Below are positions 27,953 to 32,151 of a stretch of 39,290 nt of DNA, one piece after another. Position 1 is the first letter of the stretch. Every line of letters begins with the position of its first letter. The notes under the pieces are model-generated. The model was not told where the DNA came from. It was given only the letters and a program-made list of their open reading frames with translations, and did not search any database. Location: assembly GCA_027038295.1 (NCBI GenBank), contig JALVXD010000154.1:1-39290 (forward strand), read 5' to 3'. The stretch comes from Campylobacteraceae bacterium (GTDB taxonomy: Bacteria > Campylobacterota > Campylobacteria > Campylobacterales > Sulfurovaceae). A program made the translations under genes and the position numbers.

Positions 27953-29263
27953 TCATTTTATAATTTTCCCATTTTGCACTACATAAGAATCTGACATATT
28001 GACAGCATGATATATGGTTGTACCGTACTTTTTACTATAATATTGCAGAAGTATTTTTTGTTGGGTAGGCTCTATAGAAGGAGTTAACCATCCATTGTTG
28101 GTGAGAACTATCATATTTTTTGGTTTTCCCTCATAGAGCTTTTCAGAGGTTGCTTCAAAACAGATGGCATTTCTGTAGGTAATACCATGTATCGTATAGT
28201 CTGTAAAGTCAGACGAAGCAATATAATCAGGGGCTCCATCAAAAAATAGTTCATTTATCCATTTTCCCATAAAGTCGGGTAGGGGATTTTCCTCTCCAAA
28301 TGGAACCAGTTTTACTTTATTTGCTATGGTATAGGCTCCATTTTGGAAAATATAGGTTGAGTTACGGGGAATATTGTTTTCCCAATATAAGGCTCCGAGT
28401 ACAATCGTAATATCATTTGAATAGTTTTGCAGTGCCTCCATAAGCTTGGGTTGAGTATTGAGAAAAAGAGCAAATACAGACTCTGGAAATACAATCACCT
28501 CTTTCTTCTTTGATATAGCTTCTCTTATGGCAATAAAAACAGCATCTATATGTTTAGATTTTAACGTGTTGTCCCATTTGTCTTTTACATTTGTATGTGT
28601 ACCATGTAGTTCAATTAGAGAGTTTATGGTTAACTTTTCTTTAAAATGATTGGCATAGGGATAGGCAAGAAGCGTTATAAAAAGAAAAAGGAGTTGTTTT
28701 TTGTAAATAGTTAGAGCTATAGAGAGTAATACCAATGCAAACTGCCATTTTTCTACACCTAAATAGCTATTTGTAAACATAAGTTCTGGTTTAAACCAGT
28801 CAAAACCAAAAGGATGAATGTATGATAAAACGAGTAAAATTAATACTTTAGAGACTAAATCAAACCCCGTAGGGGCAGAGCGATGTCTCTGCCCTTGTTC
28901 GATATTTAAAATACGCCTAATAAACTCAGCAAGGGTAAAAGTAAAATAAAAAATAGCCATATAAATAAGCCCAAGAATAAAAATAGGAATAGGTATAGCC
29001 CAAGCCATGTCGTAGTTTTTGAAGCTAATTCCTATCCACCAAAACCATAAAACACCTATGAAAAAACCTGTCCAAGTCCATGTTCTTTTGTCTGCTAAAA
29101 GAAGGAAGTATAGGGTGGCAAGTCCCAAAATAGTATTGATGAGGTTGTTGACCAAACCAAACCAATCTAAGTAGATAGCTCCAGCACTTAAAAGGGCTAT
29201 CAAAAAGCCTTCTGTTATCTTCTTAATGTTAAAATGTTCGCTAATTTTTATATATAAACTCAA
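27953..29263 (-). CDS. lnt: Apolipoprotein N-acyltransferase
   Basis: Lnt adds the third acyl chain to the N-terminal Cys of lipoproteins in the inner membrane. The 436-residue protein has about six hydrophobic segments (to about 205) and a C-terminal nitrilase-like domain with the triad Glu261 (VFPESVF), Lys318 (KVKLVPFGE) and Cys368 (AICFEATS). The start is TTG at 29263, with AAGGGA 5 nt upstream; no other start precedes the first membrane helix. Residues 124-132 (GQRHRSAPT), in a loop between membrane segments, are encoded by a GTAG-headed REP-like hairpin inserted in frame. Divergent from yajC with only 11 bp between the start codons. Confidence 0.94.
   Translation of the reverse strand: MSLYIKISEHFNIKKITEGFLIALLSAGAIYLDWFGLVNNLINTILGLATLYFLLLADKRTWTWTGFFIGVLWFWWIGISFKNYDMAWAIPIPIFILGLIYMAIFYFTFTLAEFIRRILNIEQGQRHRSAPTGFDLVSKVLILLVLSYIHPFGFDWFKPELMFTNSYLGVEKWQFALVLLSIALTIYKKQLLFLFITLLAYPYANHFKEKLTINSLIELHGTHTNVKDKWDNTLKSKHIDAVFIAIREAISKKKEVIVFPESVFALFLNTQPKLMEALQNYSNDITIVLGALYWENNIPRNSTYIFQNGAYTIANKVKLVPFGEENPLPDFMGKWINELFFDGAPDYIASSDFTDYTIHGITYRNAICFEATSEKLYEGKPKNMIVLTNNGWLTPSIEPTQQKILLQYYSKKYGTTIYHAVNMSDSYVVQNGKIIK
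28869..28894 (+). repeat. REP-like element inside lnt
   Basis: GTAG (28869-28872) is followed by GGGCAGAG-CGATGT-CTCTGCCC, a perfect 8-bp stem. It lies antisense within lnt and is translated in frame as the peptide GQRHRSAPT (residues 124-132). Its GC content stands out from the AT-rich gene around it. Confidence 0.7.
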
Positions 29264-32126: not shown

Positions 32127-32151
32127 GTAGGGTGTAGTCCCCGACTACACC
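32127..32151 (+). repeat. REP-like element downstream of secF
   Basis: GTAG (32127-32130) is followed by GGTGTAGTC-CCC-GACTACACC, a perfect 9-bp stem with a 3-base loop. It is the strongest hairpin of the set. It might also attenuate transcription after secF, although the T-run that follows is short and interrupted. Confidence 0.7.

Follow-up and report, generated by a model that had tools for sequence, protein, structure and literature searches.

A GTAG-type REP translated in frame within a membrane-helix turn of Sulfurovaceae apolipoprotein N-acyltransferase

In the 39,290-nucleotide stretch of Sulfurovaceae DNA that we analysed (the window), the gene for apolipoprotein N-acyltransferase, lnt, carries a short dispersed repeat that is translated as part of the enzyme. 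The repeat is a member of a family of GTAG-type REPs, and its presence in lnt is most likely a tolerated selfish insertion: a REP mobilised by a RAYT (REP-associated tyrosine transposase) would have inserted into an ancestral lnt and been fixed there as about 12 residues, a reading to which we give a probability of roughly 0.88.

The hairpin lies at positions 28,869 to 28,894 (+ strand) and reads GTAG followed by GGGCAGAG, CGATGT and CTCTGCCC, that is, a GTAG head, an exact 8-bp stem and a 6-nt loop, exactly where the earlier note on this DNA had placed it, to the base. An independent listing of inverted repeats also contains the stem as a perfect 8-bp repeat. Folded as DNA, the element reaches -8.6 kcal/mol against a mean of -3.8 for shuffled sequences (z = -3.0), and a degenerate consensus of the REP family, allowing up to three mismatches, finds this single match in the window where shuffles predict 0. 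The window has no Rfam match, and a known RNA element was rejected as an identity for the hairpin. Judging from Lnt orthologues that are free of the REP, the inserted stretch, QGQRHRSAPTGF, would cover approximately 28,863 to 28,898 (- strand; 36 nt, 12 codons), with edges uncertain by several bases. Among the sequences compared there was no strain-level empty lnt site by which to fix the ends of the insert and its target exactly.

The host open reading frame (27,953 to 29,263, - strand) encodes 436 amino acids from a TTG codon and is continuous, remaining open through the REP. It scores 470 bits with the NCBIfam profile NF008934 (cut-off 427), and the best Foldseek matches of its predicted structure are all Lnt proteins, headed by those of E. 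coli and P. aeruginosa; because profile and fold comparison agree, the identity of the protein is settled. Pfam gave just a weak, sub-threshold CN_hydrolase match, and a sequence search of PDB chains gave none. Residues E261, K316 and C368 are invariant in the alignments and were assigned to the Glu-Lys-Cys triad by motif context. Within this protein the hairpin is read in frame as GQRHRSAPT, in the turn separating two membrane helices; this had been proposed from the letters alone, and the reading frame and the structure model both agree with it. In the AlphaFold model (mean pLDDT 84), helices 91-118 and 133-148 are joined by a 14-residue coil, 119-132, whose pLDDT falls below 50 at residues 125-128, and the insert is thus predicted to lie in a disordered TM4-TM5 turn. 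The E. coli enzyme has eight TM helices and both termini in the cytoplasm (PMC5500888), so that, if this topology holds here, the TM4-TM5 and TM6-TM7 turns would be cytoplasmic, opposite the periplasmic active site.

The hairpin has many relatives in the genome. A BLAST search with 81 bases around it found 14 places, one of them 100% identical over 30 nt, and a covariance model built from ten aligned copies, the lnt copy included, recovered about 44 copies, among which the lnt copy scores 53.8 bits (E = 6e-18). The GTAG tetranucleotide stands at the foot of the hairpin in 10 of the 10 aligned copies, and the stem covaries among copies (C-G to T-A at position 4, G-C to C-G at position 8). Inverted pairs some 50-70 nt apart recur, for example at C269:1673/1723 and C54:2945/2998. 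Six related genomes whose Lnt has an insert hold 14-55 copies each, and G004, whose Lnt has none, holds seven weaker ones. Thus the foot, the GC-rich 8-bp stem (5-13 bp are allowed) with pairing-preserving changes and the dispersed copies, most of them between genes, all agree with a GTAG-type REP, and the mobile-repeat reading of the earlier note holds, the stretch of about 12 residues being absent from Lnt of most other branches. A second, different GTAG REP, GTAGGGTGTAGTCCCCGACTACACC, lies in the window at 32,127 to 32,151 (+ strand), in the intergenic space directly after secF.

An alignment of Lnt from relatives places the insert in time. The motif QGQ.H.S.PT occurs at the same place in five species, namely that of the window (G000), G033, G021, G031 and G025, which group together as a single clade in the Lnt tree (support 0.97). 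The insert measures about 12 residues and is in frame in all five carriers, and most other family members, such as G004, have a loop shorter by about 12 residues. The sample was limited to the 34 genomes given by the genus search. In their DNA, G000, G021 and G025 still have an intact REP, and that of G031 and G033 has decayed: the copies there have stem mismatches and score 36-38 bits while the frame stays open. The earlier note would have been refuted by orthologues having the same loop with no repeat in their DNA; it is not, for the loops of G033, G021, G031 and G025 all retain the REP, intact or decayed. The insert is identical between G000 and G021 and differs from that of G033 at 5 of 12 residues, set against a dN of 0.013 in the rest of the protein. 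On the tree and the alignment, the five species have the insert in common by descent. An insertion peculiar to the window's strain, as had been suggested, is rejected since five species share the insert, and other species have repeats in the same loop.

A separate observation concerns lnt codons ~100-131. Over this tract G000 and G033 differ by about 20%, against a few percent elsewhere, and the tract forms a local mosaic: contrary to the gene tree, G000 matches G021, and G033 is nearer to G031. The mosaic stops near the REP edge, as it might after recombination, or it may be due to assembly mixing.

What could have moved the repeat? In G025, a relative of the window's species, we found a gene for a 178-aa RAYT-type protein (Pfam Y1_Tnp; L220:1218-1754) that is flanked by copies of the window's REP, two on each side, and has one more inside, in frame (residues 97-106). 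Because of these flanking copies, the G025 RAYT is probably the mobiliser of the family. The window's own assembly did not yield a RAYT bracketed by this REP, which is weak evidence of absence because repeats break assemblies. The window's genome has five Y1-transposase genes, two of them with REPs of the kind found at 32,127 to 32,151 nearby, and other GTAG hairpins flank several further RAYT-type genes of these species on both sides. The RAYT-type gene L224 of G029 also contains a REP in frame, at a site similar to that in G025; here the REP is of the gene's own, different family.

We thus propose the following sequence of events. The GTAG-type REP, mobilised as single-stranded DNA by a RAYT, would have entered lnt before the five carriers (G025, G031, G021, G033 and the window's species) diverged from their common ancestor. 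It would have landed in frame and without stops in a short turn that joins TM4 to TM5, presumably on the cytoplasmic side and distant from the active site in the periplasm, and for this reason the enzyme probably kept working, with no effect on its activity, while the REP became fixed as about 12 extra residues. Afterwards the reading frame would have been kept and the DNA hairpin would have decayed in some lineages. Alternatively, the repeat could have spread into genes by gene conversion or template switching between repeats or alleles instead of RAYT transposition. The lnt tract at codons ~100-131, which contradicts the gene tree and stops near the REP edge, is what such exchange could leave. 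However, it would explain a swap of REP-bearing alleles and not the arrival of the REP, and both the many unrelated genes hit and the G025 RAYT-type gene bracketed by the same REP fit transposition better, so we consider this route improbable.

In fact, lnt is far from the only gene entered. In stretches from seven genomes, 24 of 180 REP copies fall inside ORFs that are 100 aa or longer, a count in which some ORFs are probably spurious and for which the search pattern misses decayed copies. Hosts supported by protein families are Lnt, HisH (three genomes), HPr-EI proteins (two), DnaX, ArgJ, two ABC-F proteins, Cas6 and RAYT. The in-frame copies use four of the five open reading frames across these proteins, and this use of frames points to tolerance at linkers and turns rather than to a selected peptide. 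The earlier note had called for a search for the lnt peptide in other proteins of the genome; other proteins mostly read the repeat in other frames, so that there is no conserved peptide. The HisH proteins L281, L259 and L186, from three species, have the in-frame REP at the same place and read it as VGADQCVCP or VGAEPSLCP.

Against simple tolerance we have to count the behaviour of the family inside Lnt itself. Four Lnt inserts of the window's REP family (one in the ancestor of the five species, two in G032 and one in G030) are inserted in one orientation and read in one frame, a uniformity that tolerance alone does not require, and all encode GQxHxSA(P/S)T, though five frames are open. Together with the persistence of the insert in five species, this is what one would expect if Lnt had recruited the REP-encoded loop, for folding, for binding a partner or for setting topology through its positive charges, and had kept it for that purpose. 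Yet the same-frame cases are few: three matches to the first would arise by chance at 1 in 27 to 1 in 125, and the shared frame may instead reflect selection against hydrophobic or cysteine-bearing frames. Moreover, the insert can evolve more quickly than the remainder of Lnt (G000 versus G033), it is disordered in the model and most relatives do without it. We therefore hold recruitment to be improbable, and keep tolerated insertion as the preferred reading. A chance palindrome in coding sequence has a negligible probability and was rejected: a lone 8-bp stem is not rare, and the region has other 8-bp inverted repeats, but neither accounts for a dispersed family of 44 copies, an E value of 6e-18, 14 BLAST places and 0 matches expected in shuffles.

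Lnt loops of other species carry repeats as well. Two of the inserts just described share the Lnt of G032, where the window's REP family occupies the TM4-TM5 loop and again the TM6-TM7 loop. In G030 it occupies the TM4-TM5 loop, and a different repeat of 69 bp, starting GCGAGGCTAAAGCCATCGG, occupies the TM6-TM7 loop. Dozens of full or partial copies of this 69-bp repeat are found per genome in G030 and G003, and the TM4-TM5 loop of G003 Lnt has a copy that is 80% alike; the repeat was also noted for the G029 genome, and it enters Lnt loops in frame. A third family, GTAGGTCGGGGTG, dispersed in the respective genomes, stands in the TM4-TM5 loop of L053 and L054. Further palindromic or repeat-like inserts occur in the same loop in G029, L061, L066 and L069, for some of which dispersal is below threshold. 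Short tandem runs, for example of TCACTCATCACTCA or TTCACTC, are translated in the TM4-TM5 loop of L056, L059, L066, L069 and L075, from Sulfurovum-like species.

When 55 Lnt proteins are aligned, internal insertions of at least 6 residues are confined to the positions after residues 119 and 190, leaving aside the variable N-terminal region and a single insertion that follows residue 377. This last, in L036 (G002), adds 18 residues, TMKSIKTHNMDTLRDQKS, to the catalytic domain. At least three repeat families are represented in Lnt loops across several lineages, and insertions into the TM6-TM7 loop are separate events from those into the TM4-TM5 loop. Since sister lineages are without the insert, separate gains in the clade of G000, in G032 and in G030 appear likelier, on comparison of the sequences, than one old gain with many losses. 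It is tempting to go further and regard the TM4-TM5 and TM6-TM7 turns of Sulfurovaceae Lnt as genuine landing sites of REP-like elements at which the reading frame is selected (always the charged, cysteine-free one for the window's family), such that unrelated mobile repeats would have remodelled loop length and charge in parallel; we consider this doubtful.

How does the repeat compare with known systems? The GTAG REP super-family, as set out in the main text of Di Nocera et al. 2013 (PMC3733652), has stems of 5-13 bp and loops of 2-20 nt, and the window's REP resembles it in its GTAG head, 8-bp stem and 6-nt loop, in its occurrence as single copies and inverted pairs, in its RAYT association and in the translation of some copies within genes. 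Intragenic GTAG REPs and REPs flanking RAYTs are already known from that text, which also gives a Sulfurovum strain as bearing GTAG and CGTC repeats. Lnt, in contrast, is not among the targets named there, the supplementary list aside. The one case described in it of REPs at about the same site is recB of two Xanthomonas species (PMC3733652), whereas here a single Lnt loop has received at least three repeat families in several lineages. Repeated insertion into one Lnt loop by different families, and Lnt as a host, thus seem new. In studied RAYT/TnpA-REP systems (REPtrons), the GTAG and the hairpin are the recognised features (PMC2817692, PMC8266576), and the Y1 transposase gene of G025, bracketed by its GTAG REPs, is of this type; unlike those systems, it and its G029 homologue hold a REP in frame at a similar site inside the transposase itself.

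The earlier note had likened the insertion to the Rickettsia palindromic elements, and in behaviour the likeness stands: both are short palindromic mobile DNA, found in frame in unrelated protein genes and kept as extra residues. Membership is rejected on size and frame use, as the Rickettsia elements are described as about 150 bp long with an ORF for a conserved peptide (PMC10969869), whereas the window's REP measures only about 36 nt and four frames are used to read it.

Branch by branch, the lnt series records how a selfish repeat is built into a conserved membrane enzyme: in related species the repeat is intact, decayed or absent, and other repeat families have struck the same turn. The Rickettsia elements had raised the question whether such insertions are junk that proteins tolerate or material from which proteins are made; with this series it can be tested in further bacteria, and on an enzyme, Lnt, for which structures have been solved. 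The parallel pattern of insertions in Lnt is unusual and merits a systematic count.
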